64,000 nt of DNA from Nocardiopsis prasina DSM 43845 (GTDB lineage: Bacteria; Actinomycetota; Actinomycetes; Streptosporangiales; Streptosporangiaceae), in assembly GCF_000341265.1 (NCBI RefSeq), contig NZ_ANAE01000161.1:62001-126000 (forward strand). The letters run 5' to 3'. How positions within the stretch are numbered: the stretch's first letter is position 1; each line of letters starts with the position of its first letter. Shown here piece by piece: positions 28,214 to 47,831 of the stretch. The position numbers and the translations under genes were made by a program. A model generated the notes under the pieces. The model did not search any database, was not told the DNA's origin, and saw nothing but the letters and a program-made list of their open reading frames with translations.

Positions 28214-28559
28214 GACGGAGCCACAGTACCGGACAGGCGTTCGACAGCCGGTGTGGCGTCTGGCACGAACCACCGAAGCCTGTGGATAACCTGTGGAAAG
28301 CCGCCCTGTGAGACATCTTGCACCTCACGACAGCGAACCGCGTTTTCCCAGTTCAAGTGGGCTATGAGCGACTCGCGGCAAAGTTATCCACAGGTGATGT
28401 GCATAACCTCTGTGCGCAATGCCCCACGGGGCCTCGGTTGTGGTGGTAGAGGGTTGTCCACAGGCGAGCCGCGCGGCGTCTTCGACACCCCGGATGGGGC
28501 ATGCTGGAAGAGTCGGTCCGATCCGGGCCGACGCACGCGGCCGGTGTGGGGAGAAGTTC
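28214..28559. other. MATE-dnaB divergent region with DnaA boxes
   Basis: 346 bases. Three exact nonamers of DnaA-box type occur: TGTGGATAA at 28281-28289, TTATCCACA at 28384-28392 and TTGTCCACA at 28454-28462, plus a weaker TGTGGAAAG at 28292-28300. The remainder must hold the promoters of both genes. Confidence 0.7.
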
Positions 28560-31157
28560 GTGAGTGTCGCTGAGCAACCACCTGATGAGGGCGGATACGA
28601 GCGCACCCCACCCCACGACATCCAGGCCGAGCAGAGCGTCCTGGGCGGCATGCTGCTGTCCAAGGACGCCATCACCCAGGTCGTCGAGATCATCCGCTCC
28701 GCCGACTTCTACCGCCCCGCGCACCAGATCATCTACGACAGCGTCGTGGACCTCTTCTCCCGCGGCGAGCCGGTCGACGCCATCTCGGTCAACGCGGAGC
28801 TGACCAAGCGCGGAGAGGCGACCCGGGTCGGCGGGGCCCCCTACCTGCACACCCTCACCGAGGCGATCCCCACCGCGGCCAACGCGGGCTACTACGCCAA
28901 GATCGTCTCGGACCGTGCGGTCCTGCGGCGCCTGGTCGAGGTCGGTACCCGGATCGCGCAGATCGGCTACGCGGGCGACGGCGAGGTGGACGACCTCGTC
29001 GACCACGCCCAGGCGGAGATCTACAAGGTCGCCGAGAAGCGCACGGGCGAGGACTACGTGGTCCTCGGCGACATCATGCCCGGGGCCCTCGACGAGATCG
29101 AGGCGATCGGCGCCAACGACGGCAGCATGACCGGCGTCCCCACGGGCTTCGCGGACTTCGACGCCCTCACTAACGGCCTCCACCCGGGCCAGATGGTGAT
29201 CATCGCCGCCCGCCCGGCCGTCGGCAAGGCCCTGGCCCTGGACACCCCCCTGCCCACACCGCACGGCTGGACCACCATGGGAGAGGTCCGTGTCGGTGAC
29301 GAGCTCCTCGCCGCTGACGGCACTCCCACCAGGGTGGTGGCGGCCACGGACGTGATGCGGGACCGCCCCTGCTACGAGGTCACCTTCGATGACGGCACGG
29401 TGGTCGTGGCGGACGCCCAGCACCAGTGGCTGACCGACACGCGTGCCTCGCGCCGAGCCGCGCAGGAGGCCCGGGCCAGGGGCGGAGCCCCCAGGGTTCT
29501 GCCGGGCGTGCGGACCACGGAGGAGATCGCTCGGACCGTGCGTCTGGAGACCGCGGACCGGAGACTGAACCACTCGGTGAACAACACCGAACCCTTGGAC
29601 CTGCCGGAACGGCAGGGGCCACTGCCGCCCTACTTCCTGGGAATGTGGTTGGGCGACGGTGCCTCCCGGGCTGCGCGGATCACCACCGCCGATCCCGAGG
29701 TCATCACCAACATCGAGGCGGAAGGACTGGTGACCAAACCGGTCGGGGAGACCTCCTACACCTACGGTGTCTTCCTCCCGGCGGAAGAGGTTGAGGTCGC
29801 GGAGAAGACCTGCGTGGTCTGTGGGGCTGGCTTCGTCCCGAAGCTGCCGCACGTGCGCACGTGCGGGCAGTCCTGCGGAGGCAGGGCCCGTTTCGTCTCG
29901 GAGCCGGTTCCGCACACCAGCTGCCCTGACTGCGGTCGCCCCTGCTTCTCCGGTGCCCGGTGCCGCGACTGCGTCGCCCACCACGGAAGCGTCCAGGCTC
30001 TGCTGCGGACGCTGGGAGTCTTGGGAAGCAAGCACGTCCCCACGGAGTACCTGCGCGCGTCGGTCGCCCAGAGGAGGGCTCTCCTGGCGGGACTCCTGGA
30101 CAGCGACGGAACCGTCAACGCCAGTGGGTCGGTACAGTTCGCCGTCACCAACGAGCGCCTGGCAGCTGACTTCCGGGAACTGGCGCACAGCCTGGGGTAC
30201 CGCACCGGTCTGTCGACCAAGCGGGTCAGGGGGCGATCGGACGAGAGTTCGACCTGCTACACCATCACCTTCGGTTCCGAGCGGGAGGTCTTCGGAATCG
30301 AACGGAAGAGGGCCGCGCATCGGGAACGGTCCGCCGGTCGAGCCCATGTGCGCGTCGGATCGAGGTTCGTCACCGACGTTCGCGCGATCGACAGCGTTCC
30401 GGTGCGGTGCGTCCAGGTCGATCACCCGGACCACCTCTTCCTCGCCACCCGTTCCATGGTGCCCACACACAACTCCACCCTGGCCCTGGATTTCGCGCGG
30501 GCCGCGTCCATCAAGAACGAGATGGCGTCCGTCTTCTTCAGCCTGGAGATGGGGCGCAACGAGATCGTCATGCGTCTGCTCTCCGCCGAGGCGCGGGTGC
30601 CGCTGCACACCATGCGGTCCGGTCTGATGACCGACGATGACTGGGCCCGGCTCGCCAGACGGATGGGCGAGGTGGCCAGCGCGCCGCTGTTCATCGACGA
30701 CTCCCCGAACATGTCGATGATGGAGATCCGGGCCAAGTGCCGCCGTCTCAAGCAGCAGCACGACCTCAAGCTCGTGATCGTCGACTACCTCCAGCTGATG
30801 AGCTCACCCGGCCGGGTGGAGAGCCGTCAGCAGGAGGTCTCCGAGATGTCGCGTTCGCTCAAGCTCCTGGCCAAGGAACTGGAGGTGCCCGTGGTCGCGC
30901 TGTCCCAGCTGAACCGTGGTCCCGAGCAGCGCACCGACAAGCGCCCCCAGGTCTCCGACCTGCGTGAGTCCGGGTCGATCGAGCAGGACGCGGACATGGT
31001 GATCCTGCTCTACCGCGAGGACGTGCACGACAAGGAGTCCCCGCGCGCGGGCGAGGCCGACATCATCGTGGCCAAGCACCGTAACGGTCCCACCGCCGAC
31101 GTGACCGTGGCCTTCCAGGGCCACTACAGCCGATTCGTCGACATGGCGCCCGGTTAA
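28560..31157 (+). CDS. dnaB: Replicative DNA helicase DnaB, interrupted by an intein
   Basis: Hexameric 5'-3' replication-fork helicase. The precursor is 865 residues; the intein accounts for 415 (bases 29229-30473), leaving a 450-residue helicase, the normal length. N-terminal domain from HDIQAEQSVLGGMLL; linker; RecA-like motor with Walker A RPAVGK|STL split by the intein after Lys223, Walker B (LKLVIVDYLQLM) and arginine-finger region. The GTG at 28560 is chosen because GGGGAGAA precedes it and DnaB homology begins there. Function depends on protein splicing, since the P-loop is otherwise broken. Confidence 0.96.
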   Translation: MSVAEQPPDEGGYERTPPHDIQAEQSVLGGMLLSKDAITQVVEIIRSADFYRPAHQIIYDSVVDLFSRGEPVDAISVNAELTKRGEATRVGGAPYLHTLTEAIPTAANAGYYAKIVSDRAVLRRLVEVGTRIAQIGYAGDGEVDDLVDHAQAEIYKVAEKRTGEDYVVLGDIMPGALDEIEAIGANDGSMTGVPTGFADFDALTNGLHPGQMVIIAARPAVGKALALDTPLPTPHGWTTMGEVRVGDELLAADGTPTRVVAATDVMRDRPCYEVTFDDGTVVVADAQHQWLTDTRASRRAAQEARARGGAPRVLPGVRTTEEIARTVRLETADRRLNHSVNNTEPLDLPERQGPLPPYFLGMWLGDGASRAARITTADPEVITNIEAEGLVTKPVGETSYTYGVFLPAEEVEVAEKTCVVCGAGFVPKLPHVRTCGQSCGGRARFVSEPVPHTSCPDCGRPCFSGARCRDCVAHHGSVQALLRTLGVLGSKHVPTEYLRASVAQRRALLAGLLDSDGTVNASGSVQFAVTNERLAADFRELAHSLGYRTGLSTKRVRGRSDESSTCYTITFGSEREVFGIERKRAAHRERSAGRAHVRVGSRFVTDVRAIDSVPVRCVQVDHPDHLFLATRSMVPTHNSTLALDFARAASIKNEMASVFFSLEMGRNEIVMRLLSAEARVPLHTMRSGLMTDDDWARLARRMGEVASAPLFIDDSPNMSMMEIRAKCRRLKQQHDLKLVIVDYLQLMSSPGRVESRQQEVSEMSRSLKLLAKELEVPVVALSQLNRGPEQRTDKRPQVSDLRESGSIEQDADMVILLYREDVHDKESPRAGEADIIVAKHRNGPTADVTVAFQGHYSRFVDMAPG
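29229..30473 (+). mobile_element. Class 3 intein with LAGLIDADG endonuclease in the DnaB P-loop
   Basis: 415 residues from Ala1 (GCC at 29229) to Asn415, followed by Ser+1. Ala at position 1 excludes the standard Cys1/Ser1 mechanism. The diagnostic W/C/T set of class 3 inteins is present: Trp67 (block B, QHQWL), Cys394 (block F, VRCVQVDHPDHLF) and Thr413 before the terminal His-Asn (VPTHN|S). Two LAGLIDADG motifs (LGMWLGDGA near 29637-29663; LLAGLLDSDG near 30081-30110) make it a putative homing endonuclease, so the element may still be mobile. Between them sits a nine-cysteine segment (29811-29972). Boundaries fit the restored GKS P-loop exactly. Confidence 0.92.
29811..29972 (+). other. Cysteine-rich zinc-knuckle insert inside the intein endonuclease
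   Basis: 54 residues with nine cysteines: C-x2-C-x13-C-x3-C, then C-x2-C-x3-C-x5-C-x2-C. The pattern suggests two zinc knuckles between the LAGLIDADG helices. Plain LAGLIDADG inteins lack this; a DNA-contact role is inferred. Confidence 0.7.
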
Positions 31158-32952: not shown

Positions 32953-33154
32953 GCGGCCCTCCTGTCCTGCGTGGTTCCGGTGTTTCTGGGTGCCACGGAG
33001 CGCAGGGAGAGCCGTTTCGGTCATGGGTGCACGGGTGTGCTGCGAGACCGGAACATGGAAGGAGGCTGCCCGTACGCGACCGCGGTGTGGTGACGTCGAC
33101 GGAGCCGCCGGACCGCTGTGCGGTGGGGGCTCGGAACGAGGACGTCCGGCGCGT

Positions 33155-33178
33155 CTACAGGTGGATGTACAGCCTCAT
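33155..33178 (-). CDS. Leaderless 7-residue leader peptide of the ABC-F gene (candidate)
   Basis: ATG at 33178 lies at the predicted transcript start and encodes MRLYIHL followed by TAG. Such mini-ORFs precede many inducible erm and ABC-F genes, where drug-stalled ribosomes on the leader change RNA folding. Downstream arms CGCCGGAC/GTCCGGCG (33106-33113 and 33144-33151 on the plus strand) can pair next to it. Only the sequence arrangement is seen; the mechanism is inferred. Confidence 0.5.
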   Translation of the reverse strand: MRLYIHL

Positions 33179-33181
33179 GGG

Positions 33182-33199
33182 CAAGACGATACGTCTCGT
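33182..33199. promoter_or_regulatory. Operator-like 18-mer shared with the tetR promoter
   Basis: The minus strand reads ACGAGACGTATCGTCTTG here, identical to plus-strand bases 47540-47557 beside the TetR gene. Its core AGACG-TAT-CGTCT is a dyad, and it overlaps the -10 element of the ABC-F promoter, as expected for a repressor site. Confidence 0.7.
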
Positions 33200-33214
33200 T
33201 GTATGTGTCGTCAA
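33186..33214 (-). promoter_or_regulatory. Promoter of the ABC-F gene
   Basis: On the minus strand TTGACG (33214-33209), a 17-base spacer and TATCGT (33191-33186) form a good housekeeping promoter. The transcript would start near 33179, at the ATG of the mini-ORF. Confidence 0.65.
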
Positions 33215-33303
33215 GAGGATGGAGTGAGACCGGGATCACTCATGGGTGCTGCTCGGGGCGTCAAATAGAGACGTCCACATTTGGATTTATGGTCTTGCCG
33301 ATT

Positions 33304-46901: not shown

Positions 46902-47513
46902 TCAGGGGTGCAGGCCGCGCAGGACCGTGTCCACCAGCCGGTCCACGAACTCGTGGGTGAGGGGCGCGGTGCGCAGCAGCCACCGGTGGTTCACCGGGCC
47001 GTTGAGCATCTCCACGGCGAGGTCGAGGTCGGCGTTCGGGCCGAGCTGCCCCGCCGCCTGCCCGGAGCGCAGCCGGTCCTTGAGCGCCTCGCTGTTGGGC
47101 CGTACGAGCTGTTCGGTGACGGCCCGGGCGAACTCCTCGTCGTGCTGGACCTCGGCCGTGAAGGCTCGGGTGCTCCGGTCCATCGCGGGGTCGTTGAACT
47201 CGTCGGTGGTGGCGCGGAGTACGGTCTTGAGGTCGGCGGCCAGGTCGCCGGTGTCGGGCAGCGGTCGCCCGGCCTCGGCTCCGGTCAGCCGGGTGAAGAC
47301 CTCGAAGACGACGGCGGCCTTGGACGGCCACCAGCGGTAGATGGTCTGCTTGCCCACCCGGGCGCGGGCGGCGATGGCCTCCATGGTGAGCCTGGAGTAA
47401 CCGACCTCACCCAGCAGCTCCTCGGCGGCGTCGACGATGGCGTTCTGCGCGCGTTGGCTGCGGCGGCGGGGGTCCGGGGCCCGTCGGCTCTGTTCATCGG
47501 TGTTGTCGGCCAT
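46902..47513 (-). CDS. TetR-family transcriptional repressor
   Basis: 203 residues from ATG 47513 (GTGGAGA upstream). N-terminal HTH (EVGYSRLTMEAIAARARVG then KQTIYRWWPSK) and a C-terminal ligand domain of the TetR_C type with WLLRTAPLTHEFVDRLVDTV at the end. Twenty-six bases upstream stands the 18-mer ACGAGACGTATCGTCTTG, and a related 17-bp palindrome follows at 47587. The same 18-mer overlaps the ABC-F promoter at 33182, so this protein is the best candidate regulator of itself, the next small gene and the ABC-F gene. Confidence 0.88.
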   Translation of the reverse strand: MADNTDEQSRRAPDPRRRSQRAQNAIVDAAEELLGEVGYSRLTMEAIAARARVGKQTIYRWWPSKAAVVFEVFTRLTGAEAGRPLPDTGDLAADLKTVLRATTDEFNDPAMDRSTRAFTAEVQHDEEFARAVTEQLVRPNSEALKDRLRSGQAAGQLGPNADLDLAVEMLNGPVNHRWLLRTAPLTHEFVDRLVDTVLRGLHP

Positions 47514-47539
47514 GTCTCCACGGTAACCGGTCCAAAATG

Positions 47540-47557
47540 ACGAGACGTATCGTCTTG
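47540..47557. promoter_or_regulatory. TetR operator candidate 1
   Basis: ACGAGACGTATCGTCTTG, dyad core AGACG-TAT-CGTCT, between the divergent tetR and small-protein genes; exact copy at 33182-33199 (opposite strand). Confidence 0.7.
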
Positions 47558-47586
47558 GCACGGGTAGCATCAGACGTGACAGCGAA

Positions 47587-47603
47587 GACGAGACGACTCG
47601 TCT
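47587..47603. promoter_or_regulatory. TetR operator candidate 2
   Basis: CGAGACGACTCGTCTCG: perfect eight-base arms around one central base, sharing the CGAGACG half with candidate 1. It lies about 30 bases before the small gene. Confidence 0.6.
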
Positions 47604-47633
47604 CGCCTGTCGGTGACGAGAGGAGTCAACGGC

Positions 47634-47831
47634 ATGGCCAAGAACAGTGACAACCTCCTCGGGATGGGTGGTCAGCGCACCACCGTCTCCCGTTCCACGC
47701 TCCGTGGCGGCAAGGGCGGAACCAAGGGCGGGCCCAGCGACGCCGCGCGCGAGCGCAAGCAGGAACTCCTGCGCAGACTCCGTGAGAAGCACACCGCTCC
47801 GGAGGCCGGGGACACCGAAGGTCAGGCGTGA
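47634..47831 (+). CDS. Small DUF6243-like protein
   Basis: 65 residues, strongly basic and Gly-rich (NNLLG-type start MAKNSDNLLGMGGQRTTVSR), ending in a helical AARERKQELLRRLREKH stretch. It resembles the DUF6243 proteins common in Streptomyces, known only as a conserved small family. GAGAGGAG precedes the ATG. Divergent from tetR with two operator candidates between, so probably under its control. Confidence 0.75.
   Translation: MAKNSDNLLGMGGQRTTVSRSTLRGGKGGTKGGPSDAARERKQELLRRLREKHTAPEAGDTEGQA

Follow-up and report, generated by a model that had tools for sequence, protein, structure and literature searches.

A probable 18-bp operator shared by tetR and a distant ABC-F gene points to a small resistance regulon in Nocardiopsis and other actinobacteria

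The DNA analyzed here, referred to as the window, is a stretch of 64,000 nucleotides from Nocardiopsis prasina DSM 43845 (contig NZ_ANAE01000161.1, positions 62,001 to 126,000). It contains a gene for an ABC-F ATPase and, about 14 kb away, a tetR gene that is divergent from a gene for a DUF6243 protein (Table 1). The regulator carries a TetR N-terminal HTH domain (PF00440, 57 bits, cut-off 24) and a TetR_C_11 domain (110 bits, cut-off 32). Among aligned relatives of this TetR the GKQTIYR part of the recognition helix is invariant and WWPSK is nearly invariant. The ABC-F protein has two ABC_tran stretches in one chain, as used here to recognize antibiotic-resistance ABC-F proteins, and passed the ribosomal-protection-like model NF000355 (394.6 bits, cut-off 380). 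The best model was NF000171 (TlrC/CarA/OleB/SrmB). Since its score of 778.1 bits lies just under the cut-off of 800, we call the protein TlrC/CarA-like and not a member of that family. Elsewhere in the window, parS-like GTTTCACGTGAAAC sequences at 795-832 and 1040-1062 suggest that the window starts near the replication origin region, and an ORF at 28419-31157 encodes a DnaB-like replicative helicase of 912 aa, apparently with an intein inside.

Table 1. Coordinates of the features at the ABC-F and tetR/DUF6243 loci of the window
Feature	Position	Strand	Evidence
ABC-F ribosome-protection-like ATPase, 553 aa	31291..32952	-	profile models
Structured 5' leader of the ABC-F mRNA, putative attenuator	32953..33178	-	folding z, covarying stem
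Tiny leader ORF ATGAGGCTGTACATCCACCTGTAG (MRLYIHL*), AUG 7 nt after the -10	33155..33178	-	
Predicted TetR operator over the ABC-F -10	33182..33199	-	exact 18-mer; genus conservation
ABC-F promoter TTGACG (33214-33209), 17 nt, TATCGT (33191-33186)	33186..33214	-	promoter search
Conserved dyad GAGTGA-N8-TCACTC, shortly before the ABC-F -35	33222..33241	.	
TetR regulator, TetR_N + TetR_C_11, recognition helix VGKQTIYRWWPSK	46902..47513	-	domain search
Putative tetR -10, TACCGT, 6 nt before the tetR AUG	47520..47525	-	
Predicted TetR operator between tetR and DUF6243	47540..47557	+	exact 18-mer; genus conservation
Predicted second operator, perfect dyad CGAGACGACTCGTCTCG, near DUF6243	47589..47605	+	CGAGACGNNTCGTCTNG search
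DUF6243 protein, 65 aa, divergent from tetR	47634..47831	+	PF19756, 71.3 bits, cut-off 25

The preliminary description of this DNA had reported an identical 18-mer at the ABC-F promoter and beside tetR and had judged such a match not expected by chance. Both copies of ACGAGACGTATCGTCTTG were found again at exactly these positions, on opposite strands, and they are the only exact copies in the 6.0-Mb genome, where about 4e-5 would be expected under an iid model. Allowing up to three mismatches, the rest of the window yielded just two registers of one further dyad (47584-47605) against a shuffle expectation of 0.05 matches, and at three mismatches only one further place was found in the genome outside the window. 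Many unrelated copies were thus not seen in this genome-wide mismatch search. The pattern CGAGACGNNTCGTCTNG without mismatch occurs at three places in the whole genome, all of them in the window; at two mismatches its genome count is near that of the reversed-pattern control and hence about background. A chance repeat as the origin of the 18-mer pair is ruled out by the shuffles, the whole-genome count and footprinting. Comparison among genomes, given below, indicates that the 18-mer is very probably the binding site of the TetR repressor encoded in the window. Two features had been overlooked before, namely the perfect dyad CGAGACGACTCGTCTCG before DUF6243, which sits 48 bp from the tetR/DUF6243 copy of the 18-mer, and a leader ORF where transcription of ABC-F is expected to begin.

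As had been proposed, the 18-mer lies over the -10 of ABC-F: TTGACG-17-TATCGT is the sole sigma70-type match nearby on the minus strand, and the 18-mer covers its TATCGT. The spacer of this promoter is 17 nt in 25 of 29 genomes. Just upstream, a different dyad, GAGTGA-N8-TCACTC, is found about 9-11 nt before the -35 in most aligned ABC-F promoters of the genus, looks lost in G033 and G004, and is possibly the site of another regulator. At tetR, the putative -10 stands 6 nt before the AUG, for which reason the tetR mRNA is probably leaderless; this gap is 6-7 nt in all 30 genus loci.

The AUG of ABC-F is located 226 nt downstream of the AUG of the tiny leader ORF. The gap between the -10 and the leader AUG is 7 nt in 27 and 8 nt in two of 29 genomes, and a spacing of 7-8 nt is that expected of leaderless transcripts. 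Because its AUG comes 7 nt after the -10, the leader ORF is probably leaderless as well, and the ABC-F transcript appears to begin on this AUG or right beside it. The leader peptide is kept as an MRLYFFL-like sequence in the genus and is degenerate in four genomes (MRL*, MRLI*, MLL*, MLP*). Tiny ORFs of a similar kind, with about this spacing, are also seen before the ABC-F genes of other genera.

The RNA that follows is predicted to fold. The leader of the window has a folding z of -4.0 against shuffles; over 25 genomes the mean z is -2.5, with 15 of the 25 at z < -2, hence folding is not significant in every genome. RNAalifold placed only 11 pairs on the full leader. A 17-pair structure, in which the leader AUG region pairs with a downstream AGCCUC block, consists of these 11 pairs and six placed by hand, and with counts that lean towards that structure we found 91.9% of cells paired (31-45% in slid controls), 23 cells changed on both sides (6.6 in shuffles, 2-5 when slid) and a covariation of 0.188 (0.111 shuffled), which classes it as a conserved RNA structure. 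A terminator was not located in the leader, and an Rfam search of the leader returned no meaningful known leader. Together, the folded, covarying leader and the tiny ORF suggest a second, ribosome-sensing control of ABC-F. It could also be that TetR control is real and that the leader ORF and folded leader are no attenuator, which would fit the degenerate peptides and the uneven folding significance among genomes. We regard this as the less likely reading, given that none of the 29 genomes departs from a gap of 7 or 8 nt between the -10 and the AUG, that the stem covaries, that the tiny ORFs recur before ABC-F genes of other genera and that attenuation by tiny uORFs is already known and common among ARE ABC-F genes (PMC12421871, PMC10201436, PMC8546547).

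Within Nocardiopsis the operator is conserved at both loci. The pattern CGAGACGNNTCGTCTNG was matched exactly in 29 of 40 genomes, compared to 3 matches of the reversed-pattern control, and among the matches listed all but four places lie at tetR or ABC-F. An operator with 0-2 mismatches stands upstream of tetR in 30/30 loci read, and in many of the genomes another site is found at a distance of about 48-52 bp from it. For 27 genomes with tetR the DNA upstream of ABC-F was readable, and all of them have an operator there, exact in 12, with one mismatch in 11 and with two in four; the underlying ABC-F search scored 35 candidates per genome, and absences are therefore uncertain. Two genomes, G005 and G033, have ABC-F and lack both tetR and DUF6243. 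In their ABC-F promoters the dyad is broken, while the -35, the -10 and the leader ORF remain. In two further genomes the ABC-F gene carries internal deletions and tetR is kept: in G017 (L332) ABC-F is mostly deleted and the operator has decayed, while in G036 (L331) ABC-F is partly deleted and the operator is nearly intact, which counts against a regulon. Exact CGAGACG-N3-CGTCTCG sites also occur at G013:C37:18333, G036:C26:8406 and G036:C52:14980 (L124-L126). Their neighbors resemble mobile-element genes (ParA-like, FtsK-like and NUDIX-like by eye), no adjacent TetR was seen, and these extra sites in G013 and G036 are not explained by the TetR of the window.

Several TetR relatives across the actinobacteria share the helix GKQTIYRWW-SK. 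Some of them adjoin an SDR gene, and one is a paralog in G001, where a similar site (L123, G001:C1:3499494) is found between the gene of this second TetR, a paralogous regulator with an identical recognition helix, and a divergent gene. SCO3201 was rejected as a relative, as its site TGGCAGATTCTGCCA differs. Given these same-helix relatives, wherever a genome encodes a further member of the family, that protein could be the one that reads the site. A paralog with the same helix, and not the TetR of the window, might thus be the main regulator of ABC-F, and identical-helix paralogs with similar operators indeed occur in relatives. We consider this improbable, because a tetR search at E<=1e-40 gave a single gene in this genome and the exact CGAGACGNNTCGTCTNG places are confined to tetR/DUF6243 and ABC-F.

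Outside the genus, a regulon of this kind gains further support. G148, G134 and G077 each have a related tetR next to an ABC-F gene and divergent from it, with paired operators in between. A search of 84,980 species genomes recovered 74 exact copies of the 18-mer, 67 of which lie at most 450 bp from the start of a gene for a related TetR, DUF6243, a TlrC/CarA-like ABC-F or the macrolide glycosyltransferase Mgt. Assigned by gene start within 450 bp, the copies fall to ABC-F (17), DUF6243 and TetR (16), TetR (15), Mgt (10), Mgt and TetR (7), DUF6243 (2) and none of these (7). One Mgt was named by NCBIfam NF033129 (799 bits, cut-off 700) and the other Mgt genes were assigned by similarity to it.

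We also inspected 16 Streptomyces genomes, which were picked for holding the 18-mer and illustrate, but do not estimate, its frequency. All 16 encode a TetR relative (47-56% identity). An exact CGAGACGNNNCGTCTNG site is directly upstream of its gene in 13 of them and was not found beside this gene in G213, G214 and G218. Pattern matches over the 16 genomes amounted to 74, with both strands counted, versus 3 for the reversed-pattern control. Sites at all three of tetR, ABC-F and Mgt occur in four genomes (G219, G221, G222, G224), and in another four (G215, G216, G226, G227) DUF6243 is divergent from tetR. A similar site (L278, G226:C5:36945) precedes an alpha/beta hydrolase gene (PF00561), whose product could be another drug-modifying enzyme. 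The placement of the 18-mer differs among promoters, being between the apparent -35 and -10 at Mgt and overlapping the apparent -35 at Streptomyces ABC-F genes, so no one promoter element fixes its position. That the ABC-F copy is only conserved -10 and leader-start sequence, read by no repressor, is therefore very hard to believe: the site does hold the TATCGT -10, which is conserved on its own, but the tetR-less G005 and G033 lost the dyad and retained -10, -35 and leader ORF.

The small regulon of TetR, DUF6243 and ABC-F that had been predicted from the 18-mer is supported in that the operator is conserved in the genus, that tetR and DUF6243 are missing together with an intact ABC-F operator, that in other genera tetR and ABC-F stand side by side in divergent orientation with operators in pairs, and that the exact 18-mer recurs at TetR, DUF6243, ABC-F and Mgt genes across actinobacteria. 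It is likely, in our judgement, that TetR represses itself, DUF6243 and, in trans, ABC-F, with a putative leader attenuation downstream. From the sites, their conservation, the gene partners and the promoter geometry, all of them read from sequence, we infer the following course. A TetR dimer would bind the 18-mer and keep tetR, the divergent DUF6243 gene and ABC-F 14 kb away switched off, covering the -10 at ABC-F. A ligand would release the repressor; because of the target genes this is probably a ribosome-targeting compound, for example a macrolide-like drug. The resulting ABC-F mRNA is predicted to begin on the AUG of the 7-codon leader ORF or right beside it, and this ORF may be translated without a leader. 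As the mRNA is predicted to carry the folded leader as well, ribosomes stalled by the drug probably add a second decision point ahead of ABC-F synthesis. The macrolide-inactivating Mgt of Streptomyces likewise appears to be under the control of this TetR subfamily. Only tentatively, and with rather less confidence, we propose a widespread actinobacterial regulon in which one TetR subfamily, often accompanied by DUF6243, acts as sensor of a ribosome-targeting compound and as regulator in trans of Mgt and ABC-F, and in which the leaderless leader ORF adds ribosome sensing.

Parts of this arrangement are known from other systems. The S. coelicolor ARE5 genes are5sc and tiaA are likewise actinobacterial resistance ABC-F genes; their 5' leaders are long and include a tiny uORF on which ribosomes stall in response to drugs (PMC12421871). 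However, their promoters are reported to be constitutive when no antibiotic is present, and are5sc is a member of the WblC regulon (PMC12421871), whereas at the ABC-F gene of the window the promoter lies under a predicted TetR operator and the leader ORF seems to be leaderless. LmrC of S. lincolnensis (PMC8546547) and CplR of C. difficile (PMC10201436) likewise have a leader uORF and alternative RNA folds before the ABC-F gene; no TetR layer was found in the passages on these two systems, and the uORFs described there are not placed on the transcription start. Classical TetR/efflux pairs (TetR, QacR, SimR) share the repressor beside its own operator and the presumed small-molecule inducer, but they control an adjacent pump, and here the targets would be an ATPase for ribosome protection that is encoded at a distance, with Mgt added in Streptomyces. 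M. smegmatis Ms6564 (PDB 4jl3) has nearly the same recognition helix, GKQTIYRWWPS, by sequence match, and is reported to act as a broad master regulator that scans DNA generically (PMC4150764). A full-text literature search among open-licence papers returned no TetR controlling such an ABC-F gene and no report on DUF6243, which is weak evidence of novelty; a small resistance regulon of this kind in several actinobacterial genera is apparently undescribed so far.

The TetR described here is a candidate transcriptional controller for two intrinsic ribosome-drug resistance genes in Nocardiopsis and Streptomyces, one for ABC-F protection and one for macrolide glycosylation. DUF6243 gains a first regulatory context, and the exact operator makes the regulon findable by sequence. 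If the proposed two-step control is true, ABC-F synthesis would require the drug to be present in the cell and on the ribosome as well.
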